36,372 nt of DNA from Oligoflexia bacterium (GTDB lineage: Bacteria > Bdellovibrionota > Bdellovibrionia > JABDDW01). The position numbers and the translations under genes are program-made. Position 1 is the first letter of the stretch. Every line of letters begins with the position of its first letter. Below, piece by piece: positions 5,389 to 27,909 of this stretch. The DNA is taken from the NCBI GenBank assembly GCA_034439615.1, contig JAWXAT010000015.1, positions 1 through 36,372 of the forward strand. The letters are read 5' to 3'. The notes under the pieces were generated by a model. The model made no database searches and was not told the origin of the DNA. It was given only the letters and a program-made list of their open reading frames with translations.

Positions 5389-5844
5389 ATGGCACTCAGA
5401 CAAGTTTGGACTGATATTGAAATCAATAGTACTCCCGAAAAAGTTTGGGAAGTGCTCATTGATTTTTCTAAATTTAATCAGTGGAACCCACTTTTTAATT
5501 TTATTGAAGGTGACCCTTCTAAACATGGTTCTCCCTTAAGAGAACATATTTTTTTATTTGGAAGAGGTGGCCCTATGGTGAAGTGGCGATCAAAAGTTAT
5601 GATTTATAATCCGCCCTATGAATTTGCTTGGCGCGGGCATGTTTGGTTTAGACAATTTGGTTTAGGTGAACATCATTATCAAATTATTCCACTAGGTGAG
5701 AACAAAGTACGCTTTGTGCACTGGGAATTGTTTTTTGGATTTTTTCCGACACTATTTTTTAAATATTTTATGAAGAAAAAAACAACGTTACTTTTTCATC
5801 AAATGAATCTTGCGATTAAAAACAGAGTGGAGAATCTAATTTGA
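5389..5844 (+). CDS. SRPBCC (START-like) domain protein
   Basis: The protein is a SRPBCC/polyketide-cyclase-like fold, a small hydrophobic-ligand-binding domain. The opening RQVWTDIEINSTPEKVWEVL and DFSKFNQWNPL are typical of the family's first strand and helix, and the C-terminal long helix is MKKKTTLLFHQMNLAIKNRV. The ATG at 5389 (151 residues) is chosen because the domain starts there; an in-frame ATG at 5323 would add 22 residues but has no better ribosome binding site. The stop overlaps the TTG start of proB, so they are likely co-transcribed. The ligand is unknown. Confidence 0.72.
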   Translation: MALRQVWTDIEINSTPEKVWEVLIDFSKFNQWNPLFNFIEGDPSKHGSPLREHIFLFGRGGPMVKWRSKVMIYNPPYEFAWRGHVWFRQFGLGEHHYQIIPLGENKVRFVHWELFFGFFPTLFFKYFMKKKTTLLFHQMNLAIKNRVENLI

Positions 5845-6617
5845 GTATGCGTCGATGGGTGATCAAAGCTGGAAGTCAAATTGTCTGTGATGGTGGCCCT
5901 GTTTTGCTAAGGTCTTGGATGCAACAACTCTTAACACTTAGGCGTCAACATCAAATCGAAGTAATTTGGGTGACATCAGGTGCAATCGCTTCAGCAGTTG
6001 AACGAACTGAATTTAGTAAAACAAGAGCTGACTGGTCGTTGTTTGAAAAACAAGCACTCAGTGCCATTGGACAGCCGATGTTAATGGATCTCTACAACAT
6101 TGCACTCAATGCAACGGGTCTTGTGGGCGCTCAAGTTTTACTAACATATAAAGATTTGTCAGATCCAAAAAGACGACTTAATTTTAAACATACAGTTGAA
6201 CAGCTGATGAAGTGGAAAGTTGTCCCCATCATAAATGAAAATGATGCTGTAGCTACTGATGAAATAAAATTTGGTGATAATGATTCTTTGTCCGCAAAAG
6301 TTGCTGCCGTGACAGGTGCCGAGCGTCTTATTATTTTGACAGATGTTGAAGGTCTTTATGACATGGATCCCATGAAATACAAAAATGCTAAACTTATAGA
6401 AACACTTAATAGCGTTTCGTCAAAACTTCTTAAAGAAGTGGGATTATCTTCTAAATCAAGTCGTGGTACGGGCGGGATGTTCTCAAAACTTAAAGCTGCA
6501 AAAGAAGCGGGTAGTAAAGGAATCACCACCCAGCTTATCAAAGGTGATTTGCAAGCAGGACTCACTCGAATCGCTCAGGGTGAAAATGTAGGAACTGTAA
6601 TTTCAAGGAGTAAATAA
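5841..6617 (+). CDS. proB: glutamate 5-kinase
   Basis: ProB phosphorylates glutamate in the first step of proline synthesis. Its amino-acid-kinase motifs are WVIKAGSQIV, WVTSGAIAS, PIINENDAV, GDNDSLSAKVA, LTDVEGLYDMDP and GTGGMFSKLKAA. At 258 residues it lacks the C-terminal PUA domain present in E. coli ProB (367 residues), which is a known natural variant. The start is probably TTG at 5841, eight bases after GGAG and overlapping the previous stop (TTGA); an ATG two codons later is possible. proA follows with a one-base overlap. proC is not in the window. Confidence 0.92.
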   Translation: MSMRRWVIKAGSQIVCDGGPVLLRSWMQQLLTLRRQHQIEVIWVTSGAIASAVERTEFSKTRADWSLFEKQALSAIGQPMLMDLYNIALNATGLVGAQVLLTYKDLSDPKRRLNFKHTVEQLMKWKVVPIINENDAVATDEIKFGDNDSLSAKVAAVTGAERLIILTDVEGLYDMDPMKYKNAKLIETLNSVSSKLLKEVGLSSKSSRGTGGMFSKLKAAKEAGSKGITTQLIKGDLQAGLTRIAQGENVGTVISRSK

Positions 6618-7949: not shown

Positions 7950-9602
7950 ATGATTCATTTAAGCAATGTTACAAAACAGTACGGCGATAGAATTCTTTAC
8001 CGCGACGGTAGTTTTCAAATTCGACCCAATGATAAAATCGGCCTCGTTGGCCCAAATGGTGCTGGGAAAACTACGATTTTTCGCGTCATTATGGGTGAAG
8101 AAAGTGTCGACAGTGGGCATGTGAATATTCCCGATAAACTCGTCATTGGCTATTTTTCTCAAGATGTAGGTGACATGAAGGGGCGCTCAGCCCTTGAAGA
8201 AGTAGAAGCAGGTGCAGGGCGCGTATCAACATTAGCCGCTCAAATTGCTGAAATGGAACTTCGACTTCAAGAAACTGCAGAAAAACCACTCTCTGAACAA
8301 GACATGGCCACACTTCTTGATAAGTATGGTGAAGCCCAACTCGAGTTTGAAGCGCGCGGTGGGTATGATCTTAATGCGCGTGCAAAAACAATTTTAACTG
8401 GTCTTGGAATTGGGCCAGATGATTTCAATCGCTCCGTTGAGAGTTTTAGTGGTGGTTGGAAAATGCGTATCGCATTAGCTAAAATTTTAGCTCTGAATCC
8501 TGATGTACTTTTGATGGACGAGCCCACTAACCATTTAGATTTAGAATCAATCATTTGGCTTGAAGAATGGTTACGAAATTTTAAAGGTGCTCTCGTTATG
8601 ACAAGTCATGACCGTGAGTTTTTAAACCGATTAGTGAATCGAATTGTTGAAATCGCAAATAAAAGCATTACCTCATTTACAGGTAATTATGCATTTTATG
8701 AAAAAGAACGGGGCATTAGAAAAGATCAACTCCTGGCTTCACATAAAAAACAACAAGACATGCTCGCAAAAGAAGAAGAATTCATAGCAAGATTTGCAGC
8801 AAGGGCATCTCATGCAGCTCAAGTGCAATCACGAGTTAAAAAAATTGATAAAATCGATCGCATAGAAATTCCACCTGAAGAACAAGCAATGTATTTTGAT
8901 TTTCCTCAAGCCCCTCGCAGTGGTAATGAGGCCGTTAAAATTGAGAGTTTATCAAAAACATACACCCAAGAAGATGCTAAGAAAAAAACCGTTTTTACTA
9001 ATCTCACTGGAATGGTGCGGCGTCTTGACAAGATAGCTGTCGTTGGTGTTAACGGCGCGGGCAAATCGACACTTCTTAAAACTATTGTGGGTCAAACAGA
9101 TCCAACTGAGGGTAAGGTTACCATCGGTGCGAATATAAAACTGGGTTATTTCAGTCAGCATTCTTTAGACGTATTAAATCCGAAAAATACTATTTTTGAA
9201 GAAGTTCAAAACCGAATTCCAAATTCAACAATTGGCAGTATTCGAAGTTTACTTGGTTGTTTTTTATTTAGCGGTGATGATGCCGATAAAAAAATCTCAG
9301 TACTTTCTGGTGGAGAAAAAAGTCGGGTTGTTTTAGCTACAATTTTAGCCACACCTGTTAATTTTCTGATTCTTGATGAACCTACAAACCATCTTGATAT
9401 TCGTTCTCGCGAAGTATTGCTTGAGGCCTTGAAAAAATTTGAAGGCACAATCATGTTTGTTAGCCATGATCGTCATTTTTTAAGAACACTCTCTAACCGC
9501 GTATTTTTTATCGACCATGGAAATCTAAAAGTTTTTGAAAGTGGTTTTGAGTATTATGAACCTGAGCTTTTAAAAATGGGACTTTTGGGAGAACCGTCAT
9601 AA
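7950..9602 (+). CDS. ABC-F family ATPase
   Basis: This 550-residue cytoplasmic protein has two ABC ATPase domains and no membrane segment, as in the ABC-F family of ribosome-associated translation factors. Domain 1 has Walker A GPNGAGKTT, signature FSGGWKMRIALA and Walker B VLLMDEPTNHLD. Domain 2 has GVNGAGKST, LSGGEKSRVVLA and LILDEPTNHLD. The interdomain linker (about residues 250-310) is charged and helical, with ASHAAQVQSRVKKIDKI, most like the YheS/YbiT type. The start lacks a ribosome binding site. Which ribosomal state it acts on cannot be told. Confidence 0.92.
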   Translation: MIHLSNVTKQYGDRILYRDGSFQIRPNDKIGLVGPNGAGKTTIFRVIMGEESVDSGHVNIPDKLVIGYFSQDVGDMKGRSALEEVEAGAGRVSTLAAQIAEMELRLQETAEKPLSEQDMATLLDKYGEAQLEFEARGGYDLNARAKTILTGLGIGPDDFNRSVESFSGGWKMRIALAKILALNPDVLLMDEPTNHLDLESIIWLEEWLRNFKGALVMTSHDREFLNRLVNRIVEIANKSITSFTGNYAFYEKERGIRKDQLLASHKKQQDMLAKEEEFIARFAARASHAAQVQSRVKKIDKIDRIEIPPEEQAMYFDFPQAPRSGNEAVKIESLSKTYTQEDAKKKTVFTNLTGMVRRLDKIAVVGVNGAGKSTLLKTIVGQTDPTEGKVTIGANIKLGYFSQHSLDVLNPKNTIFEEVQNRIPNSTIGSIRSLLGCFLFSGDDADKKISVLSGGEKSRVVLATILATPVNFLILDEPTNHLDIRSREVLLEALKKFEGTIMFVSHDRHFLRTLSNRVFFIDHGNLKVFESGFEYYEPELLKMGLLGEPS

Positions 9603-9690
9603 AAGTAGGTTGATAAATTCTCGTCATTACAGATTTCATGTAAATAATTTAACAAATTTTTAAACAGATCCGCTATTTGGTCCATTGGCT

Positions 9691-9726
9691 GGCACACACT
9701 TTGTAATGGTGTAGTTGTGTGTTGCC
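9691..9726 (+). other. imperfect hairpin upstream of small membrane protein
   Basis: GGCACACAC at 9691-9699 can pair with GTGTGTTGCC at 9717-9726 with one bulged T, closing a 17-base loop. A run of G follows (CCGGGGGG). No U-tract follows, so it is not a standard terminator. It may be a structured leader of the transcript carrying the 58-residue protein and the aldolase. The rest of 9603-9840 is AT-rich and shows nothing else I can name. Confidence 0.35.
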
Positions 9727-9840
9727 GGGGGGCAGAAATAGGGTGAACGTTATCGAACCAATAATAAATTCGCTAACATTGCATGGCGTCAATTTCCGTG
9801 TTACTTGAAAGTTTAAATAAGCAATTTAAAGAGGTGCAAG

Positions 9841-10017
9841 ATGTCTGATTTAAAACGCTCAACATTACTATTCATGACTCGCAGTGGAACTTTTGGTTCT
9901 ACAGAGCAAATCCTCAATCATGGTGGAAAAATCAGTGATCCCCATTGGGTCTATTCTTGGCTTCTCGTAGTAGCTCTAGCTGGAGTTATTTGCATTCATA
10001 CTGGTCTTTTCTTCTAA
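9841..10017 (+). CDS. 58-residue single-span membrane protein
   Basis: This short gene starts at ATG 9841 after AGAGG at good spacing and ends at TAA 10015-10017. The product begins MSDLKRSTLLFMTRSGTFG and ends with a hydrophobic stretch, YSWLLVVALAGVICIHTGLF, that is a clear membrane span. The first 37 residues are polar. I do not recognise the family. It lies 74 bases before the aldolase gene in the same direction, so the two may share a transcript. The good ribosome binding site and the clean soluble/membrane pattern support it being real. Confidence 0.65.
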   Translation: MSDLKRSTLLFMTRSGTFGSTEQILNHGGKISDPHWVYSWLLVVALAGVICIHTGLFF

Positions 10018-10091
10018 CTCTCCTCAAGATGCTCTTGCACCCCGGGCAAAGCCCGTGTAATCCATGATGATTACTTAAAAAGGAGCATCAT

Positions 10092-11018
10092 ATGACCCCT
10101 CGGGTAAAAGAGATTTTAAGCTGGTACGGTTCTGATAATCCAGGTGTACTTGCCAACCTCACACGACTCATGAATACAGGTCGAATCGCTGGTTCTGGAA
10201 AACTTGTCATTTTGCCAGTTGATCAAGGTTTTGAACATGGCCCTGCTAGATCTTTTGCAGTGAATCCTTCGGCATATGATCCTCAATATCATTTTCAATT
10301 AGCCCTTGAATCAGGGTGTAACGCATATGCAGCTCCACTTGGTTTTATAGAAGCGGGTGCTCGCGAATTTGCTGGTCAAATTCCTTTAATTTTAAAACTT
10401 AATAACTCTGATGTTTTGTATTCCTCTAAAGAACCAAAATCAGCCATGACGGGTTCAGTTGATGAAGCTCTTAGACTTGGTTGTGCAGGAATTGGTTTTA
10501 CGATTTATCCGGGAAGTGCACAGCGTAATGACATGTACAAAGAAATTGCTGAACTTACTCAAGAAGCAAAACGTAAAGGTCTTGTGGTTGTCGTTTGGTC
10601 GTATCCTCGAGGTGGAGGCCTTAGTAAAGAAGGTGAAACGGGTATTGATGTTATTGCCTACGGTGCTCACATTGCGGCACAACTTGGTGCGCACATTGTT
10701 AAAGTAAAACCACCTACCAATCATATCGAGCAAGCAGAAGCAAAAAAAGCTTATGAAAAAGCACAAATTCCAATTGCTACAATGTCTGAGCGCATTCGTC
10801 ATGTTGTTCAAAGTACTTTTAACGGCCGACGCATTGTAATTTTCTCAGGCGGATTAGTTAAAGGTGATGCTGAGCTTCTTGAAGAAGTAAAAGGAATTGC
10901 TCAAGGCGGCGCATTTGGAAGTATTATGGGGCGCAATGCTTTTCAGCGTCCTAAAAACGATGCCATTAAATTATTAAATCAAGTTCAAGATATTTTTAAA
11001 TCTGCTGAGAGGGCTTGA
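10092..11018 (+). CDS. fbaB: class I fructose-bisphosphate aldolase (FbaB/DhnA type)
   Basis: The 308-residue protein matches class I, Schiff-base aldolases of the DhnA/FbaB family, which cleave fructose 1,6-bisphosphate in glycolysis and form it in gluconeogenesis. Family features are LVILPVDQGFEHGPA, IGFTIYPGS, WSYPRGGG, GAHIVKVKPPT with the candidate Schiff-base Lys at K204 or K206, and IFSGGLVKG with GRNAFQRP near the phosphate site. The ATG follows AAGGAG at seven bases. lysS starts six bases after the stop, so they are probably co-transcribed. Confidence 0.9.
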   Translation: MTPRVKEILSWYGSDNPGVLANLTRLMNTGRIAGSGKLVILPVDQGFEHGPARSFAVNPSAYDPQYHFQLALESGCNAYAAPLGFIEAGAREFAGQIPLILKLNNSDVLYSSKEPKSAMTGSVDEALRLGCAGIGFTIYPGSAQRNDMYKEIAELTQEAKRKGLVVVVWSYPRGGGLSKEGETGIDVIAYGAHIAAQLGAHIVKVKPPTNHIEQAEAKKAYEKAQIPIATMSERIRHVVQSTFNGRRIVIFSGGLVKGDAELLEEVKGIAQGGAFGSIMGRNAFQRPKNDAIKLLNQVQDIFKSAERA

Positions 11019-11024
11019 GTTCAG

Positions 11025-12503
11025 GTGGATAATACTGACAATCCAATTAAAGCTGAAAAACGACGAAAGCTTCACGAATTTAAAAAAGCGGGTATTGATC
11101 CGTTTCCTCATAATTTTGAACGAAACAGCACAATCTTAGAAGTGCGTTCAAAATTTGGTCATCTTAAAGCTACAGAACATACACTTGAGCCTGTGATTCG
11201 ACTTGCGGGTCGAGTGATGACTGTTCGCTTGATGGGTAAGGCTGCATTTTTTAATCTGCAAGATCAATCAGGCACCATGCAAGTTTATCTTAAGTTAGCT
11301 GAACTATCTGCTGAGGACGCAAAAAGTTTTGAGCTGTTAGATCTTGGCGACATTGTTGGTGTTGAAGGTTTGATGTTTGGTACAAAAACCGGTGAACTCA
11401 CTCTCAGTGCTAAGAAATTTCAAATGCTTTGTAAAACTCTTGAGCCATTACCAGATAAACATTCAGGTCTTGCTGACGTAGAGGTGAAATATCGTGCGCG
11501 CTACCTTGATCTAATTACTAACCCTGAAGCGCGTCTTGTTTTTGAAACGCGTTCAAAAATAATCAGAGAAGTAAGAAATTTTTTAGATTCTCGCGGATTT
11601 TTAGAAGTTGAAACTCCCGTGCTTCAACCTATCTATGGGGGAGCAGCAGCACATCCATTTAAAACTCATCACCGAGCACTCGATATACCTTTGTTTTTAA
11701 AAATTTCACCGGAGCTCTATCTTAAAAGACTTATCGTTGGTGGATTTGAAAAAGTTTATGACATGAGTAAAAATTTTAGAAACGAAGGAATTGATCGATC
11801 GCATAATCCTGAGTTTATGATGCTTGAGTGGTATGAGGCCTATACTGATTATAATTATCAAATGAAACAATTTGAAGATTTAATCTCAACAGTAGCTCTA
11901 AAAGTTTGTGGCAAAACTAAAGTAAAATATGGTGAGCATGAAATTGAGCTAGCCCCACCATGGCGTAGACTCACCATGCATGATGCCATTAAAGAGTATG
12001 GAAAATTTGATTCATCAACACTTGATGACAAAGCTCTTTTTGAAAAAGCAAAATCATTAGGTTATGACGAAGAAAAAATGCCAGCTCGTGGTGTAATGAT
12101 TTGTGCTATTTTTGAATTAGTAGCAGAGAAGCATTTAATTCAGCCCACGTTTATTATCGACCATCCTGAAGAAATTTCGCCACTCACAAAAAGTCATCGT
12201 AAAACAAAAGGTTTGGTTGAGCGTTTTGAGCCCTTTATTGCAGGGATGGAAGTAGGTAACGCTTATACAGAGCTTAATGACCCAGAAGAGCAAAGACGTC
12301 GACTTCAAGATCAAGAAAAACAAAGAGTCATTGATGATGAAGCGCACCCTATGGATGAAGATTTTTTGCATTCTATCGATGTCGGTATGCCACCAACGGG
12401 TGGTGTCGGAGTTGGAATTGAGAGAATTGTGATGATTCTCACGGGGCAACTTTCTATACGAGATATTATTTTGTTCCCTACCATGAGACCTATGAATCGA
12501 TGA
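11025..12503 (+). CDS. lysS: lysine--tRNA ligase, class II
   Basis: LysS charges tRNA-Lys. The 492 residues carry an N-terminal anticodon-binding OB fold (RLAGRVMTVRLMGKAAFFNL) and the class II catalytic domain: motif 2 in KNFRNEGIDRSHNPEFMMLE and motif 3 in GVGIERIVMILTG, followed by SIRDIILFPTMRP. The OB fold and full length separate it from the short paralogue EpmA. The start is GTG at 11025. The stop overlaps the next gene by four bases (ATGA). Confidence 0.96.
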   Translation: MDNTDNPIKAEKRRKLHEFKKAGIDPFPHNFERNSTILEVRSKFGHLKATEHTLEPVIRLAGRVMTVRLMGKAAFFNLQDQSGTMQVYLKLAELSAEDAKSFELLDLGDIVGVEGLMFGTKTGELTLSAKKFQMLCKTLEPLPDKHSGLADVEVKYRARYLDLITNPEARLVFETRSKIIREVRNFLDSRGFLEVETPVLQPIYGGAAAHPFKTHHRALDIPLFLKISPELYLKRLIVGGFEKVYDMSKNFRNEGIDRSHNPEFMMLEWYEAYTDYNYQMKQFEDLISTVALKVCGKTKVKYGEHEIELAPPWRRLTMHDAIKEYGKFDSSTLDDKALFEKAKSLGYDEEKMPARGVMICAIFELVAEKHLIQPTFIIDHPEEISPLTKSHRKTKGLVERFEPFIAGMEVGNAYTELNDPEEQRRRLQDQEKQRVIDDEAHPMDEDFLHSIDVGMPPTGGVGVGIERIVMILTGQLSIRDIILFPTMRPMNR

Positions 12504-16918: not shown

Positions 16919-17941
16919 GTGAATGTTATTTCGGGCATAAATAAATCTATTCAAATATTTAGGCGATTTCACAAAGTCGTGATTTTCGCATTTATGTTTC
17001 CGATTCTCATGATGGGCTATACAAACTGCGGTCAATTTGATGTTAACGATCAAACTCTGTTTTCAAAGTTTCCGCCAAAAGTTCTCAATATAAAAGTTAA
17101 GAAATACTGCCCCGCAAGTGGCAGCACTTTCAAACAATATTTCGTGATTAACGCATCAAGCGTTGTAACGGCTGAAGGTAACTTCACACCTGATTCAGAT
17201 CGCGATGGGTTGTCAGATGACTTTGAAGAAAATCAAGAAAACCGTGATGTCTTTGGCATCGGGCCCGACGGCGAAGATCTAAATAATGATGGGTTTCTTG
17301 ACGGTTTTGATACTAACTCTGATGGTTACAATGATTTCTTGATGGTCAAAGCTGGTTACAAAAAAGATGATCAAAAAAGTTTACCCAATTGTCCAAATGG
17401 TTACAGTTTTGATGCCGATAAAGACAACCTCAATGATTGCGAAGAAGATCTACTAGGCACAGACAAAGACAAAGTTGATTCAGATGGTGATTTGATACCT
17501 GATGATCTTGAATTTAAATTTGGAATGAATCCTCTCTACGCAAATGATGCAGCCTTTGATCCAGATGTAGATGGCTTGAGTAATCTTGAAGAACTAAAGA
17601 AAAATTCTCCTCGATTTTTATCTAACAGTCTTTTAATGCTTCCGTACCCTCCGGTTTTTCAAAATGAGTTGGTGATAAGTGAAAATACAAATCTTGGATC
17701 ATGCTACAATCTTACAGTTAAAAATATTCCCGTAATGAATGTTAAAAACGGAAATGATATTCGAATTATTTTTATCGAAGATAATGCCGGCCAGCATCAA
17801 GCACAAAAAATGAGCGCCGTAATTGCTAGTGAAATTAAAAATGATACAATGATTGAATTTGACTTTAAAGATGGTGAAATTTTAACTTTTACAAATCGTG
17901 ATGTGCCTGTTGAGGAATTATTTGAAGGAGATCAAAAATGA
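16919..17941 (+). CDS. lipoprotein with TSP3-like calcium repeats and shared C-terminal domain
   Basis: The family is not one I can name. The 340 residues begin with a long signal segment ending in MMGYTNCGQ, where C37 is the probable lipidated Cys. Residues about 91-235 hold acidic Asp/Asn-rich repeats of thrombospondin type 3 style, such as DSDRDGLSDD, DLNNDGFLDG, DSDGDLIPDD and DPDVDGLSN, which bind calcium in that family. Residues about 258-335 form a C-terminal domain (SCYNLTVKN, RIIFIEDN, FDFKDGE) also found in the next gene and in the gene at 23151. It matches the vWA proteins without the vWA domain. The start is GTG with GGAG eight bases upstream. The stop overlaps the next start by four bases. 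Confidence 0.82.
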   Translation: MNVISGINKSIQIFRRFHKVVIFAFMFPILMMGYTNCGQFDVNDQTLFSKFPPKVLNIKVKKYCPASGSTFKQYFVINASSVVTAEGNFTPDSDRDGLSDDFEENQENRDVFGIGPDGEDLNNDGFLDGFDTNSDGYNDFLMVKAGYKKDDQKSLPNCPNGYSFDADKDNLNDCEEDLLGTDKDKVDSDGDLIPDDLEFKFGMNPLYANDAAFDPDVDGLSNLEELKKNSPRFLSNSLLMLPYPPVFQNELVISENTNLGSCYNLTVKNIPVMNVKNGNDIRIIFIEDNAGQHQAQKMSAVIASEIKNDTMIEFDFKDGEILTFTNRDVPVEELFEGDQK

Positions 17942-19614
17942 ATCTCCGCTTATTTTTAAGTAAACGCACTGCAATGTCGATCTCACTTTTAGCAATCAGC
18001 TCTGTGCTAATTATTGCTTTTAATAATTGCGGCGACCCACGCATTGATAAAAAGAAAACTTTACCCTCTGGTGAGCCACTCATTGATAATCAAAAAGCAC
18101 TCATCGAGTTTTGTACTGTTGACGACGTAAAGCTTCGCACGCAATTAAAATTTGTTTTCGTGATTGACCATTCTTCAAGTAACATTAACCTAATAAATCG
18201 CCCAGACCCACTTTCACCTTTACCACCTACTGATCGCCAAGGAACACGCCGTTATGATCCACTATTACAGTTTGTAAGTGGAGATGCATTAAGTGCACAG
18301 CCAGATTTATTTTATACAATCATCAACTTTAATGACACCGCAGAATATGTAACTGGTTACGAAAGTAGCGTAACAGATCAACCCGAGGTTTCAAATACTA
18401 ACAACTCAATAATCGACAAACTTGGTTTTGAAAAATCAAAAGTACTAGAGCGTGATAGAGGTGGCACTCGCTATGATCTGGCATTAGATAAAGTACGTGA
18501 ATTTATTTACAACGATCTAGACAGAGTAAAACTATTAAATACACAAAATGAAATCGTCACCTCTGCATATGTTGTTTTCTTTATTTCTGATGGCGAACCT
18601 GATGAAGGCCTTAATGCTAGCGTTTACCGCGCAAAAGTAAAATCAATTATTTCACCTCCCGATAGTAAGCTGCGTTATCTTGATCGCGTGACTTTTAATA
18701 CGGTTTACTATTATCAAAATCATTCACCCGTTGCTCAAAATATTTTAAATAGCATGAGTGATGAAGGCAAAGGTCTCTTCATACAAGCAGCCGCTGGTCA
18801 GGCAATTAATTTTTCAGAATTTGCAGCACCACCAAGACTAACAAAATCTACTTTTATGGAACTCTGGATTCAAAATACTAACACAATATGGTGGCAAGGA
18901 AAGTTTTTAGCCGACTCTGACGCTGACTTTTTACCCGATGAAATTGAAAGAACTCTTGGCAGTGATCCACTCAATCATGATTCTGATGGTGATGGCGTAC
19001 GTGACGGCGTGCAATTTTCATCTACTGGAAAACCCTGTAGTTCTACCAGCTGCGCAACAACAAGTGCTGTCAGTTTAAAATGTGCAAATATTCCCCATTC
19101 AAATTCAGCGCCATTTACATTTGAAGATACAGATGGTGATTTTTTAAATGACTGCGAAGAGCTCACACTCAGATCTGACGTTGAAAGATTTGATTCAAAT
19201 AATGATGAAGTTCCCGATTCATTGGCACTTCCAAGCGGATTACCAATCGTCGGACAATCGGTAGCTATTCAAACAGACAATGATATGGATGGCAAAAATA
19301 ATTACTATTCATTAAAAGAGAATTTTCCACTGAATAATTTTGGAGTAAAATCTCCAATACTTTTTAAGCCAATGTCTTACAAAGTTTTTCAAACTACCCC
19401 TAATGAGGCTTCACAAAAATGCTATCATTATGACATTGAAAATTTAGCTACTCTTCCACTAGCAAATGGGCAACCCAATCAAATCAGAATTCATCTCATT
19501 GAAAACGTAACTCTTAGTGGACGAAAAACCACATTACGCACAAGCACTAAACCTCTTCGCGGTATGCGCATTGAATTCACACACAAAGATTTTAAATTTT
19601 CTTCAGCTAATTGA
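17938..19614 (+). CDS. vWA-domain lipoprotein with TSP3-like repeats
   Basis: This 558-residue protein has a signal segment ending in IAFNNCGDP with C31 as probable lipid site. A von Willebrand factor A domain follows (about 70-310) with a full metal-ion-dependent adhesion site: D77-x-S79-x-S81 in VIDHSSSN, the Thr in GGTRYDLAL and the Asp in FISDGEPDEG. Then come WWQGKFLADSDADFLPDEIE and further TSP3-like calcium repeats (about 324-430) interrupted by a Cys-containing insert. The shared C-terminal domain is at about 490-555 (KCYHYDIEN, RIHLIENV, IEFTHKDF). It overlaps the upstream gene by four bases. A surface adhesion or sensing role is inferred from the domains. Confidence 0.85.
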   Translation: MNLRLFLSKRTAMSISLLAISSVLIIAFNNCGDPRIDKKKTLPSGEPLIDNQKALIEFCTVDDVKLRTQLKFVFVIDHSSSNINLINRPDPLSPLPPTDRQGTRRYDPLLQFVSGDALSAQPDLFYTIINFNDTAEYVTGYESSVTDQPEVSNTNNSIIDKLGFEKSKVLERDRGGTRYDLALDKVREFIYNDLDRVKLLNTQNEIVTSAYVVFFISDGEPDEGLNASVYRAKVKSIISPPDSKLRYLDRVTFNTVYYYQNHSPVAQNILNSMSDEGKGLFIQAAAGQAINFSEFAAPPRLTKSTFMELWIQNTNTIWWQGKFLADSDADFLPDEIERTLGSDPLNHDSDGDGVRDGVQFSSTGKPCSSTSCATTSAVSLKCANIPHSNSAPFTFEDTDGDFLNDCEELTLRSDVERFDSNNDEVPDSLALPSGLPIVGQSVAIQTDNDMDGKNNYYSLKENFPLNNFGVKSPILFKPMSYKVFQTTPNEASQKCYHYDIENLATLPLANGQPNQIRIHLIENVTLSGRKTTLRTSTKPLRGMRIEFTHKDFKFSSAN

Positions 19615-19767: not shown

Positions 19768-22700
19768 ATGGGCATAGGCAGTAAACCAGCATTCAAACGA
19801 ATCGCACTGACAGCACTTTTTGTGCTGATTGGGTTTACGCTTATTTTTTCTTACCAAAATTTTGCTACTGTGAATCCTCAAATTTGTAATAGCCACGATA
19901 TAAATACTAATTGGGAAGAAGTTGATCGATTTAGCTATACGAAAACTTTTAATGATGGCGGTATCACCGCCGCGGGGCATATTGATAGTCTGCAAATTTC
20001 TGATTCAAATAATCTACTTGGGCAAGAAATTGTAACAGTTGTTGGTCATGGTGATTCTGGAATTCTTAGTGGTAGCTCAACAGCTTCACGTACAAAACGT
20101 TTATTTGTTAGGCGTATACCGATAAATGGAACGCCAGTAGCATCAAAGGTTCAAAACCTTCTTGATTCCGACAATCATTTTTTTCAAGCGAGCAAAGTAG
20201 ATTTCAACGGCAATGTTTTCGCCACAGGTTTTTCAAGCTCAGGTTTATGGCGCTCACGAGTGCTTTTTAGTAATCCTAGTGATATTACAAAAAGTAATTG
20301 GTTTGAAAATCCAAATATCACAGTAACAGGAATTGAACCAAGCGATAGTAGGTTTAGTAAGAGTACATTTTTTGATCAAGGTCGCGATGGCGATATTTTT
20401 ATGGCTATCCGATCACAAACCAGTGCACCACAAGTAGTGTCTTTGTTTCGCAGAGATAATGGTAACGGATCTTGGACTTCGCTAGCTAGTCACGATTTTG
20501 GTATTGCTATCGAAGTGAATTTGTTTTTCAGGGATAATAATAAATTTCTCTATGTTTTTGTCACAGATAAAACATCTGTCGAAATCGCTCGCGCATTTAG
20601 GGTTGATACCACAACGTTTCTAAATGCTACGAAAGTGACTCTCGGTGATTTAAATACAGCTGGCAGTTTTAATTTCTTAGCCAATCAAAAGAAGTTTAAA
20701 ATGATAGATGGCTTTTATGATGAAAAAAGAGACCGCGTATTTCTTGTCGGCCAAACAGTAGACGCCACAGGGTTAGCATCAGCAGCTATTGTCACCACTA
20801 CCAGTGATATACGCTCACCGCCTTCAACACAAACATGGACTTCAATTTCAAAACCACTGAGTATTGGAAAAACTTCTAGATTTACACGAGTCGGCATAGA
20901 TCGTGATGGAAATATTTTTGCCTTTGGTAATGGTTTAGATGCAAATAATAGTGAGCGAAAATTTATTGTCTCAAGTTCAGATGGCGGGACTACTTGGTCA
21001 GCGCCATCAGCTAATTGTGACGGTACAGGATTTTGCACATCAATCAGCGTTGGTGGAAGTTCACGAAGCGTAGTCGTACAGGGCAGCAGCGGAATTTGGA
21101 GCAACGGCTCTGCGTTTAGTGGCGTCATTGCTGATCACACGAACGATGCCATATTTAAAAGTTTCAGCGAAGATCTTTTATCAATTGTTTCAGATCAAGG
21201 CGGAAGACTCTGGGCACTGACCGACTCACCTTCAGGCGCAGGAGATAACACACTTAAAACTCTAAAAGTATATAAAATGTCATGCAGTTCAACTCAAGGC
21301 AGTGCCGCATGGCCATCAGTGAACAGGCCACGCGTTACAATTGGTGTACCAGCAAAACCCGTATTAGTTTTTGACGATATAGCGGGGCAAACAAATCAAC
21401 AGGTGCAATTTAAATGGTCTCATGTTGGTGGGTCACTTTTTTATAAAGTTCAACGCCAAAGATCAAGTGAATTTTCTTTTTCTGAAATGCCTGTTGCTGG
21501 CTCAGTTTCATCACCGACAATTCCGATTTATGCAAAATTGGCAACACCCAATGTAAATGAATTTATTTTTACTGATACACAACTGACAAACAATGAACCT
21601 TATAAGTATCGCGTTTATGGTGTAAGTGTTGATGGAGATATAGGCATTATTTCTTCTCCTGATTTAACTCTCACACCAAATATTCCAACCCCATTAAAGC
21701 CATCAATAACATCAAATGGCGAGAGTCTTGCTGGTAATAAAATATTATTAACAATAAATCGTGGAGACGTTTTCACTACCCGATTTATCTTACAAAGACG
21801 TGAACTTCCAAGCACCATCTTTACGACAATAGCACCCAATCTAACTGCATCTGGTAGTAGCACTGCTTTTGAAGATTCAGGATTAACTACTGAAACTACA
21901 TATGCGTACCGGGTTACTCCGTTCAATAATGAAAATGAAAATGGTCCTGTATCTGATGAGAGACAAGATACTCCACGATTTCCACCACCTCCACCTGTAA
22001 AGCCATTTACACCCGCAAGTCTAACAGCCGCAGCTCAACACACTCCATTTAAAGTTACATTAAACTGGGCAAACGGTAACGGCGATGCAACACATGATGG
22101 CTTTCGAATTACCCGAAGCCTTGATGGTGGTTTAAACTTCATCCAAATTGGTGGAATCGTTTTGCCGACGACACTTACGCTTACTGATGATACTGGCGTT
22201 ACAGGAGGCCAAACACCTCAATATAAAGTGACATCACGTTTTGCAGCAAATACTTCAAAACCAGAAAGTGATCCAGCCACTGCTTCAATCGCTGTACCTA
22301 CTCCAACTCCTGTACCTCCAAGCAATGTTCGTGTAACGCAAAGTACAATGACACTTACACGTGTTGCATGGGATGCGTCACCTTTAACTCAAGCTTACGG
22401 AGTTTTTCGTAGTAAAGATGGAAGTTTAAAAAACCGAGTACAGGTATTCACCAGTACACCTTTAAGCTTAGAGTTTCCAGACACCGATGTTACAGCTGGT
22501 AGCACTTATGCGTATTGCATAAAATCATATTTAAATTTTGGCACAGATAGTGAACTTGAAAGTGCTTGCTCAGCACCTGATGTCGCAATTACTGCACCAA
22601 CACCAGCACCAACACCCAATCAAGGATCATGTATTATCGCCAGCGAAGATATCTCAGCTAATTTACCCATGGGATTTTTCGCTCCCAGCGCTGGGCAAGG

Positions 22701-23154
22701 TTATCAAAAAAGTAACATCACTACTGGCGTACTAGCTGATCTAGAACAGTTTTGCGCACAAGGGCCTTTCGATAGCTTAATGACAGATTATTGTAGGCTT
22801 AACACAAAACAAGCACAAGCCTGCGTAGCTGTTTATTTACCCAACGGCAATCAAAGTGGAACAACATGCAAAACAATCGTCGCTGATATTTTACAGGCTT
22901 CAAAACGCCAGTGCCCAAAATCAGCCGGAAGTGTAATTTCAAAAGGTGCAAATGCTGATAAATTTGATCCGCCAAAAATTAAAAAGAATGTCATCAATTC
23001 AAACCCAACTTGCGGAATGATCTCTACAAACTCTGACGGACCAACCTCAAATGGTGGAATGGGCGCAGTTGCAACAGCGTTTGCATTCTTAATGATTCCT
23101 GCATTTACCACACTCTCACTTCGTAGAAAAGAACGCGAAGGAGGGTTGTTATGA
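19768..23154 (+). CDS. large Asp-box/fibronectin-III surface protein with C-terminal anchor
   Basis: The 1128 residues start with a hydrophobic segment (11-28) ending in SYQNFATV, which copies the lipobox pattern of its neighbours with Phe32 in place of Cys. Residues about 50-520 look like a beta-propeller with at least one canonical Asp-box (SSSDGGTTWSAP, near 404). Four fibronectin-III-like modules follow (roughly 530-930) with Pro/Thr linkers such as VPTPTPVPPSN. A Cys-rich region (about 940-1080) comes next. The end is a Gly-rich stretch, a hydrophobic span (VATAFAFLMIPAFTTLSL) and RRKERE, the layout of C-terminal sorting or anchoring tails. GGAG precedes the ATG; the stop overlaps the next start by four bases. 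Confidence 0.8.
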   Translation: MGIGSKPAFKRIALTALFVLIGFTLIFSYQNFATVNPQICNSHDINTNWEEVDRFSYTKTFNDGGITAAGHIDSLQISDSNNLLGQEIVTVVGHGDSGILSGSSTASRTKRLFVRRIPINGTPVASKVQNLLDSDNHFFQASKVDFNGNVFATGFSSSGLWRSRVLFSNPSDITKSNWFENPNITVTGIEPSDSRFSKSTFFDQGRDGDIFMAIRSQTSAPQVVSLFRRDNGNGSWTSLASHDFGIAIEVNLFFRDNNKFLYVFVTDKTSVEIARAFRVDTTTFLNATKVTLGDLNTAGSFNFLANQKKFKMIDGFYDEKRDRVFLVGQTVDATGLASAAIVTTTSDIRSPPSTQTWTSISKPLSIGKTSRFTRVGIDRDGNIFAFGNGLDANNSERKFIVSSSDGGTTWSAPSANCDGTGFCTSISVGGSSRSVVVQGSSGIWSNGSAFSGVIADHTNDAIFKSFSEDLLSIVSDQGGRLWALTDSPSGAGDNTLKTLKVYKMSCSSTQGSAAWPSVNRPRVTIGVPAKPVLVFDDIAGQTNQQVQFKWSHVGGSLFYKVQRQRSSEFSFSEMPVAGSVSSPTIPIYAKLATPNVNEFIFTDTQLTNNEPYKYRVYGVSVDGDIGIISSPDLTLTPNIPTPLKPSITSNGESLAGNKILLTINRGDVFTTRFILQRRELPSTIFTTIAPNLTASGSSTAFEDSGLTTETTYAYRVTPFNNENENGPVSDERQDTPRFPPPPPVKPFTPASLTAAAQHTPFKVTLNWANGNGDATHDGFRITRSLDGGLNFIQIGGIVLPTTLTLTDDTGVTGGQTPQYKVTSRFAANTSKPESDPATASIAVPTPTPVPPSNVRVTQSTMTLTRVAWDASPLTQAYGVFRSKDGSLKNRVQVFTSTPLSLEFPDTDVTAGSTYAYCIKSYLNFGTDSELESACSAPDVAITAPTPAPTPNQGSCIIASEDISANLPMGFFAPSAGQGYQKSNITTGVLADLEQFCAQGPFDSLMTDYCRLNTKQAQACVAVYLPNGNQSGTTCKTIVADILQASKRQCPKSAGSVISKGANADKFDPPKIKKNVINSNPTCGMISTNSDGPTSNGGMGAVATAFAFLMIPAFTTLSLRRKEREGGLL

Positions 23155-24950
23155 AAACCAGAGTGCTAAGAACTCTAGGCATAATATTTGTAATGACACT
23201 TCTTTTTGGCAGCTACATGAATTGTGCAAGTCCTAAAGTAAGTAGACCTTTACCTAAGGGATCACTTTCACCAGAAGAACTTTTACGACAATCTTTGCAA
23301 AACAAAGTTTCAGTAGATTTTTGCACAACACCTGCGCAAAGTTTAAATTCAAAAATTATTATCATTGCAGCAATAGATATCTCAGGCAGTAATATCAGCT
23401 GGGAAGCGTCAAACATACCCACTGACTGTAAAGGCCTCAGGCGCTTTGAAGAACTCAAGGCGTTTACTAATAATCCTGATTTACCAGATCAAGGAAACTA
23501 TTTTTTTAGGCTTGTTAAATTTGGTAACGAGGCAGCTTCTCAAGATGGCACTGACGACTCTTTGATAGTGCAAAAGACAAATAAAAAATCTGTTTACACT
23601 GGTATGATCAATTCAGCAAAAGCTGAAGCTCTCACTGGTGAACCACAAGAAACAAACTATCAACAAGCTTTATCTAGAATAAAAGCTGTTATGGAAGCCG
23701 ATATTGCACAAGCAAAAATCGTCGATGATACACTTAATTTTATAGTAGTATTTTTATCAGACGGTGTTCCACTTGTGCGCGGAGTAAGACAAGATTATGT
23801 AAATGGCCTACAAAATACCGCAGGTTTAAGCGCAATGGTTTCTGATATCATCGCACTTGGCAAATCTGAAGAAAATCAAGCTAACGTAGAAAGTATTGTT
23901 TTTAATACTGGCTTTTACTCAGCATCGCTTGCAGCTGCAACTACAGCTTGTTCTCCACCACCACAACAGCCTGGCGAACCACCTCGACCACCACCAATAC
24001 TTAATCCAGTGATGCAACAAGAAGCAAAAACATTACTTGATAATATGGCTAAATCAGGCGACGGAAGTTTTACTGACATCGGTACAAGTAGTATTCCCTT
24101 TGATCAATTTATTGCATTGGGTGCAAGACTTCTATTTGAACTTAGTGATGTATGGGTTACTAATCTTAATTCGGCTTGGTGGAATGGTAACTTATTAGGA
24201 GACACTGACTCTGACGGCATACCTGATATAATAGAAGAAGAACTTAAATCTAATCCATTTAATGCAGATACTGATGGCAATGGTGTTCGTGATAGTATTG
24301 ATTTTTTCACCTCAACAAATCACGAGCCATGTAAAAGAAAAACTACTGGAGCCTGTGAAGTAAATTTGGCACTCAAAGCAGAATGCATTTCTGCCGGAGC
24401 TCAGGTGCTGAACGGACGATTCAAAGATCGTGATTCTGATATGCTCAATGATTGTGAAGAATTTTTACTTCAAAGTGACCCAACTAACCCAGATTCAAAT
24501 GGTGATAATATTCCAGATGAATTTGCATACCGTCATGGCTTTACAATCAATGGCCCTGCTACAGAGCGTTCTTCTCGCTCGTTCTTAGACGGCATTCGCC
24601 TTGATTTTAAACTTTTAAATTTTCAACCTCTAGATATTGCTGCCAATAATTTACCTGCTACTTTTTCACCACCCATAACACAACGACTGCTTAACACAAG
24701 ACGTACTGACGGAAGTAAAACCTGCTATTCACAAAACATAGAGCCCATCACTCATATAGCCGTAAGACCACAGGGTGGTATTGAAACTTTTGATAATAAA
24801 ATCCAGGTACTCATTTTAGAAAATCAAGCCATTCTCTCAAGGCGTCAAATCATTCGCATTGGCGAAAGAACAATGCAAAAAGGTGTTCCACTTAATTTTA
24901 CAGATGACGGGGTTAATGATTTTCCCGTGAGGTTAAACAATGGCCAGTAG
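23151..24950 (+). CDS. vWA-domain lipoprotein with TSP3-like repeats (paralogue)
   Basis: This 599-residue protein has the same architecture as the product of 17938-19614. Its signal segment ends in GSYMNCASP with C25 as lipid site. The vWA domain has D76-x-S78-x-S80 in AIDISGSN, a Thr in ETNYQQAL and the Asp in FLSDGVPLV, so the metal site is intact. A Pro-rich insert (PPPQQPGEPPRPPP) lies within the vWA region. The segment VTNLNSAWWNGNLLGDTDSD then leads into calcium-type repeats (about 350-480) with a Cys-containing insert. The shared C-terminal domain is at about 520-595 (TCYSQNIEPI, IQVLILENQA, LNFTDDGV). It overlaps the previous gene by four bases and the next by eleven, so tight coupling is expected. 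Confidence 0.85.
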   Translation: MKTRVLRTLGIIFVMTLLFGSYMNCASPKVSRPLPKGSLSPEELLRQSLQNKVSVDFCTTPAQSLNSKIIIIAAIDISGSNISWEASNIPTDCKGLRRFEELKAFTNNPDLPDQGNYFFRLVKFGNEAASQDGTDDSLIVQKTNKKSVYTGMINSAKAEALTGEPQETNYQQALSRIKAVMEADIAQAKIVDDTLNFIVVFLSDGVPLVRGVRQDYVNGLQNTAGLSAMVSDIIALGKSEENQANVESIVFNTGFYSASLAAATTACSPPPQQPGEPPRPPPILNPVMQQEAKTLLDNMAKSGDGSFTDIGTSSIPFDQFIALGARLLFELSDVWVTNLNSAWWNGNLLGDTDSDGIPDIIEEELKSNPFNADTDGNGVRDSIDFFTSTNHEPCKRKTTGACEVNLALKAECISAGAQVLNGRFKDRDSDMLNDCEEFLLQSDPTNPDSNGDNIPDEFAYRHGFTINGPATERSSRSFLDGIRLDFKLLNFQPLDIAANNLPATFSPPITQRLLNTRRTDGSKTCYSQNIEPITHIAVRPQGGIETFDNKIQVLILENQAILSRRQIIRIGERTMQKGVPLNFTDDGVNDFPVRLNNGQ

Positions 24951-27909
24951 ATATATAAACAGAACATATTTCATAGTCGCTGGACTCTCATTACTGGGCG
25001 CGCTCATCTTGGGTTTCGGTCAGGCTTGCGGTAAGTCTGGTCAATCAATTTTAGCAACACGCGTAAGAGCGCCCAAACCGCTACCGCCCCCAGCATCACT
25101 GAATGCATTTCAACCGCCACTTGCTCCGCATTTAGTTTGCAAAATGTTTTTAAATTCTGCTCCAACGGTTTTTAGAACAATAGATAGTCAGCCAGCTAAA
25201 GAGGTTTTTGATTCTCGCGTATTACCCAAAGAAGATGAAAATTTCACCATTGATTGTCGAAACACTACAAGTGGTGTGGTTGACAATGTTAATAAGCTTG
25301 AGTTTAAAATTGAATTTCATGACTCAGATTTTTTACCTTTGGATTTAAAATCTACCTTAAAAAAAGATACAGCACCCATATTTAATTATGCAGTAAAAAA
25401 TGGCACTTACGTTGGTACAATTACAGCAACAGACACCTTAGGTTTAAAATCATCGCGTGATTTTTTACTTCAAGTTAGCTGTAACAACACTCAACCCATC
25501 ACTCTTAACATGAATAAACTTATTATTAAGCCGGTTCCTGAATTAGACCGCACCGCTGCAGATCAAAATCGCGCCACTGGAGATCGCTACGAATACAATC
25601 CGCGCGACCCAAATAGCCCTAGTGATATAACAAAATCTATTGTTGTTTTACCACCCGGTTCACCGGCCAATGAGCTTGATAAATATGTTTACTCATTTGA
25701 TTTTAACGGCGATGGATTATTTGACCCATACAAAGATGGCCGCATTTTTAAATCATGGTCTGAGATGCAAGAAAACTTTGATGATAACGATGGCGTGGTT
25801 GAAGAGGGTGACGGAAATCCATTCAATAGCGTGTTTAGTTATTTCCGCGGAAAATGCACACTCATCGACGATACAAGTTCACCCGGAAATAAAACATGTG
25901 AAAAAAATGCGAACAAAATACCGGTTATAAATACAAATAAAAGAGTTGGTGTTCGTGTTTTAGATTCTGTGTGCAATGTTTATCAAGAAGGTTTTATCGA
26001 TTACAATTTTGGTGTTGATGAGAACAACCAACCTTCGCTGCAAGCTACACCCACACCCGCTGTTCCAATTACAGATCAACCTTTTTACGAAGTTGCAGGA
26101 ATGTTCCCAAATCAATTGTTTGCTATATATTTAGTTGCTGACTGGTTACCTATACGTAATCCAGCCAACGGTGTAATGAATGACGATAAGCGCATTGATA
26201 ATATTCATTATGTTGGCGTCACACCTTTAAAAGAGCGCCTCAGCAATTCAGATCGATTTTTATTTCGCTTCAATAGAGGTATCGGTTTTACTGGGCAACC
26301 TCGACACCTAAGTACCGTTAGCATGCTAGGTAGTACAAAATATTTTAGTGAAGAAAACAGAGGAACTCATGGCATGCAAGTGGGCCTACTCTACCAAGAC
26401 CTCACTGTGGCCTCTGAAAGTTTATTAATAAAAGCTAAGATGTGTAAAGGTGGCGAGACAGCATATGATCCGCTAAATCCACGGATCATTACACCTTGCA
26501 TACAGTTTGTGAATGTTTCTGGCGCAAGCATGAGTGAAACCTCAGGCCTCTATGGCACTGACATTCGCTATGCTCCAAGTGACACAAATTCATGTGAAGT
26601 CGAATATCAAATTGTACGTACCGAGCCAGGCGCTGCGGCATGTTTACTTTCAGGTGGTGTAATCGATATTTTTCCTTCTGGGTTATTGCCACAAAACATT
26701 ACCGTACGCGAAGGTAAAGTTGTTGAGTGGGTAAATAACAATACCGCAGGTGCTGTACAAGGTACGCTTAAAATATATAGACAAGGCGCAACACCTACTG
26801 ATCTTACAGAAGTATTCAGCAAAACTATTGCTGTTGGCGCTCGAGAAATACCGCCCGAAAGTTTATTTGCGAATCCGGCAACATTTAAATATGAGTGGAT
26901 TTCATCAATCACAGCACCCAATCCACGAGTTGGTTTTGTAAGCGTTATCGAAGATACCACAACAAATCCCAACTCAAGCCCTACACCTACACCAACACCG
27001 GTGCCACAAGGTGGGCTCATCGACCTTGAAATTTCAGGTCAGCTACCAACAAAAACTACGCAAAAAGGTTTCAAAATTAACTTTAAAAATATTGCAACTG
27101 CCTCATCTGGTGAAGGCATTTTGCGCGTTTATTCTGCCACCAAGAGAACGCAAGCTGGGCAACTTTTGAGCGATGGCCTTGACTTAGATACACAAGGAAA
27201 TATCAAACTCACACAAATCGCTTCACCACTAACCCCTACAGTTTTTGATATCAGAATCGGACCCACGGCAACGGCTGAATTTTTATTTAATACACCGGGA
27301 GTTTATAAATACACATGGTCGCCAAATACATCAGATGCTGATGGCGGCTATATTGCCGTACTAGATACATTCGTACGGAATCAACCACGGCCATTTTCGA
27401 TGCAGATCGACGGTAAAATTAAATGTACGTCACTCGACAATGGCGCCGTTGAACCAGAGGGTGGCACGATCAAACTCGAAGATGCCGCCCCAACACCACG
27501 CGATCTTTCAACGAAAAAAGGTTTTAAAGTGATCTGGACTAATAGCAACACCGTTGGTGCCTTTGGAACATTAAAATTATTTGAAGCAGATTCAACAGTT
27601 ACCGGGGGTTTTAAACCATTTCTTGTTAATGGCGCTGCATTTGAAAGAGGAATTTCAATTAATTCTTCGACTGACTTTACCTTTACTGTACCGAAACTTT
27701 ACAAATATACATGGACAATTGGCAGTCAAACTATGGAGGGCACCATAAATGTTGTCGATGCCCTACCCACAAACCAACGGCGCTTTATGAAATTTGAAAG
27801 CGGACGATTTAATCTCAGAGTTGGAGAATCAGAAAAAGGAATTTGCGGTGAACCTGGTCCAGGCCCCGGCGATGATGGACCACCACCCAAAGAGCCACCA
27901 GCCTTATAA
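24940..27909 (+). CDS. lipoprotein with three degenerate cupredoxin-like repeats
   Basis: I do not recognise a named family for the whole 989 residues. The signal segment ends in LGFGQACGKSG with C30 as lipid site. Residues about 80-185 resemble an Ig/PKD-like beta-sandwich (NGTYVGTITATDTLG). Near 253 is an EF-hand-like loop, DFNGDGLFDPYKD. Three related repeats lie at about 572-672, 691-810 and 841-940. Each starts with a KG-x-K-V-x-W-like strand and ends with a strand such as LYKYTWTIGSQTMEGTINVV, the layout of a plastocyanin-like domain. The copper Cys is Trp and the His is lost. The C-terminus is Gly/Pro-rich. It overlaps the upstream gene by eleven bases. Confidence 0.78.
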   Translation: MASRYINRTYFIVAGLSLLGALILGFGQACGKSGQSILATRVRAPKPLPPPASLNAFQPPLAPHLVCKMFLNSAPTVFRTIDSQPAKEVFDSRVLPKEDENFTIDCRNTTSGVVDNVNKLEFKIEFHDSDFLPLDLKSTLKKDTAPIFNYAVKNGTYVGTITATDTLGLKSSRDFLLQVSCNNTQPITLNMNKLIIKPVPELDRTAADQNRATGDRYEYNPRDPNSPSDITKSIVVLPPGSPANELDKYVYSFDFNGDGLFDPYKDGRIFKSWSEMQENFDDNDGVVEEGDGNPFNSVFSYFRGKCTLIDDTSSPGNKTCEKNANKIPVINTNKRVGVRVLDSVCNVYQEGFIDYNFGVDENNQPSLQATPTPAVPITDQPFYEVAGMFPNQLFAIYLVADWLPIRNPANGVMNDDKRIDNIHYVGVTPLKERLSNSDRFLFRFNRGIGFTGQPRHLSTVSMLGSTKYFSEENRGTHGMQVGLLYQDLTVASESLLIKAKMCKGGETAYDPLNPRIITPCIQFVNVSGASMSETSGLYGTDIRYAPSDTNSCEVEYQIVRTEPGAAACLLSGGVIDIFPSGLLPQNITVREGKVVEWVNNNTAGAVQGTLKIYRQGATPTDLTEVFSKTIAVGAREIPPESLFANPATFKYEWISSITAPNPRVGFVSVIEDTTTNPNSSPTPTPTPVPQGGLIDLEISGQLPTKTTQKGFKINFKNIATASSGEGILRVYSATKRTQAGQLLSDGLDLDTQGNIKLTQIASPLTPTVFDIRIGPTATAEFLFNTPGVYKYTWSPNTSDADGGYIAVLDTFVRNQPRPFSMQIDGKIKCTSLDNGAVEPEGGTIKLEDAAPTPRDLSTKKGFKVIWTNSNTVGAFGTLKLFEADSTVTGGFKPFLVNGAAFERGISINSSTDFTFTVPKLYKYTWTIGSQTMEGTINVVDALPTNQRRFMKFESGRFNLRVGESEKGICGEPGPGPGDDGPPPKEPPAL

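Follow-up and report, generated by a model that had tools for sequence, protein, structure and literature searches.

Cupredoxin-like domains devoid of copper ligands in a predicted lipoprotein of an Oligoflexia bacterium

Introduction

The window analyzed here, a 36,372-nucleotide stretch of DNA from an Oligoflexia bacterium related to Bdellovibrio (contig JAWXAT010000015.1), encodes a predicted lipoprotein in which the initial annotation had noticed three tandem segments resembling plastocyanin-like proteins and devoid of their copper ligands. This raises the question of whether these segments truly belong to the cupredoxin fold, how they came to lie within a lipoprotein, and what an electron-carrier fold would do there.

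Sequence features of the three repeats

The lipoprotein is the 989-residue product of gene 5 (positions 24940–27909, on the forward strand like all features of the window given below), the last gene of an operon, and it carries all three domains. Its signal peptide, assigned by eye like the lipobox, ends in LGALILGFGQAC; the lipobox, LGFGQAC (residues 24–30), provides Cys30, which is invariant in an alignment of the gene-5 family. Repeat 1 (26653–26955, residues 572–672) is joined by a Pro/Thr-rich linker, NPNSSPTPTPTPVP (26956–27006), to repeat 2 (27007–27366, residues 690–809), which has an extra loop of about 20 residues. The conserved segment FSMQIDGKIKCTSL (27367–27459), assigned to the ancestral C-terminal region and aligned with GEFxCPxL in other families, separates repeat 2 from repeat 3 (27460–27759, residues 841–940). 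A conserved C-terminal tail (27760–27906), ...SGRFNLRV...CGEPGPGPGDDGPPP, is equivalent in the alignment to the family sequence NGKFYC...CxGGGGGGGxPPP.

The three repeats, each of about 100–120 residues, are mutually homologous. Their pairwise local alignment scores are 82, 101, and 98. Shuffled sequences averaged about 28 (sd 5), and none of 500 shuffles per pair reached the observed value; sequence identity among them is 31–33%. The overall range that the initial annotation had given, 26653–27759 (residues 572–940), proved exact, and its individual repeat boundaries were correct to about one residue. The terminal strand that it had described as YKYTW...GxIxVxD is present in every repeat in the more general form (Y/F)KY(T/E)W, followed by G-x-(I/V)-x-V-x-D.

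The ligand positions also bear out the earlier description. Trp653, Trp793, and Trp925 occupy the position of the ligand Cys in repeats 1, 2, and 3, respectively, as seen in a HMMER alignment with plastocyanin. The repeats contain neither His nor Cys, while the remaining 668 residues of gene 5 have 13 Cys and 5 His residues (hypergeometric P = 8e-4). Thus, the His-Cys-His ligand set of type-1 (blue) copper proteins is absent from all three repeats, which by their ligands are not type-1 copper proteins, as judged from sequence. The single Met, in QTMEG of repeat 3, is located two residues before the conserved Gly, at the position of the axial Met of plastocyanin. This residue would favor an alternative of non-canonical binding, in which the domains would retain a metal or redox cofactor, e.g., through Trp, Met, Asp, or Glu at the old site. 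Against it stand the lack of Cys and His throughout, the lack of Met in repeats 1 and 2, and the related copy described below, which has no Cys or Met and a single His outside the ligand position. Such residual binding is therefore considered extremely improbable.

Evidence for the cupredoxin fold

As a single protein, gene 5 gave no significant match in Pfam, NCBIfam, or PDB searches, and a contig scan of the genomes with this protein alone as the query gave no match. The repeats remain below the Pfam thresholds: the best E-value for PF00127 was 0.047, in one of four copies (the three repeats and the related copy), and PF13473 gave no match. A profile built from the four copies was more informative. 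When all PDB chains were searched, plastocyanins ranked first (E = 0.0013), and copper nitrite reductase appeared lower in the list at a non-significant E-value of 0.28. In 144 genomes of the class, the profile found, besides its own copies, one real cupredoxin (in genome G109, E = 6e-5) with the copper ligands ...YFCIPHE...M. A hhalign comparison of the repeat profile with two copper cupredoxins gave a probability of 86%. A match in G075 covered the Pro/Thr-rich linker only and was rejected, and weak phylum-wide matches in G277, G358, and G157 (E = 0.005–0.009) were left out of the counts.

The AlphaFold2 model of repeat 3, built from a four-row alignment, has a pLDDT of 83, a pTM of 0.76, and nine strands. 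In a Foldseek search of the PDB, its first 33 matches were all cupredoxin-fold entries, including plastocyanin, pseudoazurin, amicyanin, auracyanin, NirK, and the CuA domain, with a best E-value of 6.5e-5 and query TM-scores of 0.48–0.61 that rest on the same four-row alignment. In a viral structure library, one of the top two matches was a blue type-1 copper protein. A 408-residue tandem model built without an alignment reached a pLDDT of only 33 and was discarded; since it was unusable, repeats 1 and 2 were assigned to the fold by homology. The structural comparison proposed for all three repeats was accordingly borne out directly for repeat 3, which had a confident model; the other two repeats receive the fold through homology. 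The outcome that the initial annotation had named as contrary to its claim, a fold other than the cupredoxin sandwich, was not obtained.

The moderate TM-scores and the sub-threshold single-protein matches would also fit another Greek-key or immunoglobulin-like sandwich (PKD, Big, or Calx-beta), common in bacterial surface proteins, that matches cupredoxins by convergence. However, cupredoxins rank above all immunoglobulin-like folds in two independent searches of the PDB, one with the sequence profile and one by fold, and the conserved blocks P-x-x-x-T-x-x-x-G-x-x-V-x-(W/F)-x-N and G-x-Y-x-Y are in register with those of cupredoxins, leaving convergence highly improbable. We take all three segments to be real cupredoxin-fold domains without a type-1 copper site, on the strength of the model for repeat 3 and of homology for the other two. 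Like plastocyanin/azurin-type cupredoxins (PF00127/PF13473; PDB 1pcs, 1j5c, 2plt, and 1id2), they have a predicted Greek-key β-sandwich and the same order of conserved blocks. They differ from these proteins in lacking the His, Cys, and His ligands, in having Trp at the Cys position, and in being three copies inserted in a 989-residue lipoprotein that fall below every curated family cut-off.

Organization of the five-gene operon

Gene 5 is preceded by four tightly packed genes, and three junctions of the operon overlap (genes 1/2, by 4 bases; genes 3/4; and genes 4/5). Gene 1 (16919–17941) encodes a 340-residue lipoprotein with TSP3-like Ca-binding repeats, in which an MtsD-like region matches NF047639 with an E-value of 2.5e-19, below the family cut-off. 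Gene 2 (17938–19614) encodes a 558-residue vWA-like lipoprotein with a DxSxS (MIDAS) motif and TSP3 repeats, and gene 4 (23151–24950) a second vWA/TSP3 paralogue, a lipoprotein of 599 residues. Gene 3 (19768–23154) encodes a protein of 1128 residues with one or more fn3 domains and a hydrophobic/RRK tail at its C-terminus.

In the compared proteins of genes 2 and 4, the MIDAS residues Asp76, Ser78, and Ser80 and an SDG motif are invariant, and a lipobox is present. These proteins had no vWA match in Pfam, and their profile found no vWA structure in the PDB; the vWA assignment is therefore based on the motifs DxSxS and SDG. Genes 1, 2, and 4 have in common with MtsD (NF047639), a cell-cell cohesion protein, and CglD (NF033765) a TSP3 Ca-binding repeat region, and the match is confined to this region, with 43–69 and 9–22 bits against cut-offs of 800 and 400, respectively.

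Among the operons compared, the fn3 protein of gene 3 occurs only in the version of the window's family. This protein and its orthologue in genome G002 have at their C-terminal end a stretch rich in Cys and Gly, a hydrophobic segment, and LRRK; the arrangement is reminiscent of the sorting tails known as MYXO-CTERM or GlyGly-CTERM. A MYXO-CTERM assignment was not supported, as no NCBIfam model matched.

Relatives and insertion history

Three genomes of the window's family were compared, one of which (G001) is without the operon. The other, Oligoflexia bacterium isolate SJ240 (Bdellovibrionota; contig JADLCR010000061.1, genome G002), shares all five genes and their order. Its gene 5 contains a single ligandless domain with the sequence YKYTWELAQG. 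The N- and C-terminal parts of the window's gene 5 are orthologous to positions 9055–11244 of locus L004.

Three further families also have gene 5, in a total of at least seven genomes (loci L037–L043), where it encodes proteins of about 480–570 residues and adjoins the same TSP3 and vWA genes. The gene-5 proteins of these seven genomes contain no cupredoxin-like region, and their C-terminus has the pattern GEF/Y-x-CPxL ... NGKF(Y/F)C ... C-x-GGGGGGG-x-PPP. After in silico removal of the repeats, the proteins of the window and of SJ240 aligned with this family from the lipobox to the tail. Since these orthologues lack the domains and the repeat-less proteins align from end to end, the simplest interpretation makes the domains lineage-specific insertions into a conserved Bdellovibrionota lipoprotein. 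Two insertion sites are apparent, both within the C-terminal Cys/Pro-rich region. The first, before the GEFxCPxL segment, holds repeats 1 and 2 of the window and also the single SJ240 domain; the second, between the GEFxCPxL and NGKFYC segments, holds repeat 3. Because the SJ240 copy is likewise ligandless, copper loss is common to all known copies, and the simplest reading is that the copper site was lost before the first insertion.

The three-gene core itself (a TSP3 lipoprotein, a vWA/TSP3 lipoprotein, and gene 5 with its CxGGGGGGGxPPP tail) recurs in several Bdellovibrionota families. The gene-5 member that was searched matched no NCBIfam model.

Other cupredoxin-fold proteins of the window genome, namely an azurin-like protein, NirK, and CoxB, were weighed as the source of the domains. 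Only the azurin-like protein was aligned with the repeats, and its identity of 16–28% is too low to decide. Elsewhere in the same genome (G000), a protein at 1468–2718 of locus L009 (contig C9) is an unusual fusion of ankyrin-like repeats to a C-terminal cupredoxin domain, the latter with its Cys and His retained (CGIHGA).

The variation among relatives bears on a possible, though rather doubtful, alternative in which the domains are inert spacers that arose by insertion and duplication at permissive sites and do no more than make the lipoprotein longer or stiffer, having no binding role of their own. Orthologues without the domains exist, copy number is one or three between close relatives, no more than about 12 alignment columns are invariant, mostly at fold positions, and the linker between repeats 1 and 2 is stalk-like. 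On the other hand, the F/YKYxW...G-x-V-x-D strand and the Trp are retained in all four copies at 24–33% identity, so some constraint persists, perhaps on folding alone.

Linkage to Glt-like gene clusters

In two relatives (G056 and G053), the vWA–TSP3–gene 5 set is located between GltC/TPR/OMP-like and TolR/TolQ/GltG-like genes, and in a third (G005) it adjoins GltC-like and TPR genes. The vWA/TSP3 set linked to Glt-like genes in G049 is a more distant one. The vWA protein CglB is the Glt surface adhesin of Myxococcus (PMC13104615), and Bdellovibrio has core Glt genes (PMC3169522). With the Glt focal-adhesion machinery of Myxococcus xanthus the operon would share a surface vWA protein as a partner type, and in relatives the core genes are linked to GltC/GltG/TolQR-like genes. 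In contrast, in the window genome the operon has no Glt genes beside it, and Glt-like clusters lie on other contigs. Because the vWA/TSP3/gene-5 core sits in Glt-like gliding clusters of some relatives, a role in surface adhesion is our best guess for the operon. We know of no counterpart of gene 5 and its cupredoxin-like domains in the Glt set.

One Glt-like cluster of the window genome (L066, contig C28, 4038–17513) comprises GltC-like, TPR, GltG-like, and TolQ/TolR-like genes and has its own vWA lipoprotein. At 5663–6172 of the same locus, a 169-residue open reading frame has several MKTSK(T/A)-type repeats in succession at its N-terminus, ahead of a signal-like segment. The window genome and SJ240 each have one further vWA/TSP3 lipoprotein operon that is more distantly related (L050, 7393–12295, contig C34 of the window genome; L051, 8021–11595, contig C64 of SJ240).

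Proposed role of the copper-free domains

Since no copper-binding Cys or His is left, the electron-carrier fold probably serves here in a new capacity, as a structural or binding module beside likely adhesion proteins. We favor, with a probability of about 0.6, a scheme in which cupredoxin domains, now without the type-1 copper site, were inserted into the C-terminal region of the conserved lipoprotein and multiplied in the window's lineage. One operon would produce gene 5 together with Ca-binding TSP3-type and vWA/MIDAS-type lipoproteins, and the five proteins would form an adhesive assembly exposed at the outer-membrane surface, similar in kind to the adhesins of CglB type that belong to the Glt gliding machinery. 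Here the copper-free domains would carry no electrons and would serve as stalk or contact modules that lengthen the protein or supply a variable binding surface toward the substratum, a neighboring cell, or a partner protein. Surface exposure, a joint complex, and adhesive function of the five proteins are what we infer from this arrangement. The suggestion in the initial annotation that the fold was reused as a surface module agrees with the lipobox, the vWA/TSP3 neighbors, and the insertion pattern; the binding function that it also allowed for is at the level of inference.

For ephrins, an origin from cupredoxins with loss of copper has been proposed (PMC6485061). Their ectodomains, like the repeats, have a cupredoxin fold without copper ligands, and they are displayed on the cell surface and bind through protein contacts (PMC6485061). 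Unlike the repeats, ephrins are animal proteins with disulphides; the likeness concerns the use of the fold and implies no sequence kinship. Copper-free cupredoxins for surface recognition are thus already known, and what is new is a bacterial, lineage-specific, and multiplied set in a conserved, predicted surface lipoprotein. A bolder and rather unlikely proposal is that the domains mediate contact or recognition within an adhesin used for gliding or predation. This would be an independent bacterial parallel to the origin of ephrins, in which a redox fold shed its metal and turned into a surface ligand, and additional copies at exposed sites would diversify binding or extend it.

The conserved vWA/TSP3/gene-5 operon, which lies inside Glt-like clusters of some genomes, is a concrete candidate set, and the insertions provide a clear before-and-after series of zero, one, and three domains for the conversion of a redox fold into a predicted surface module.
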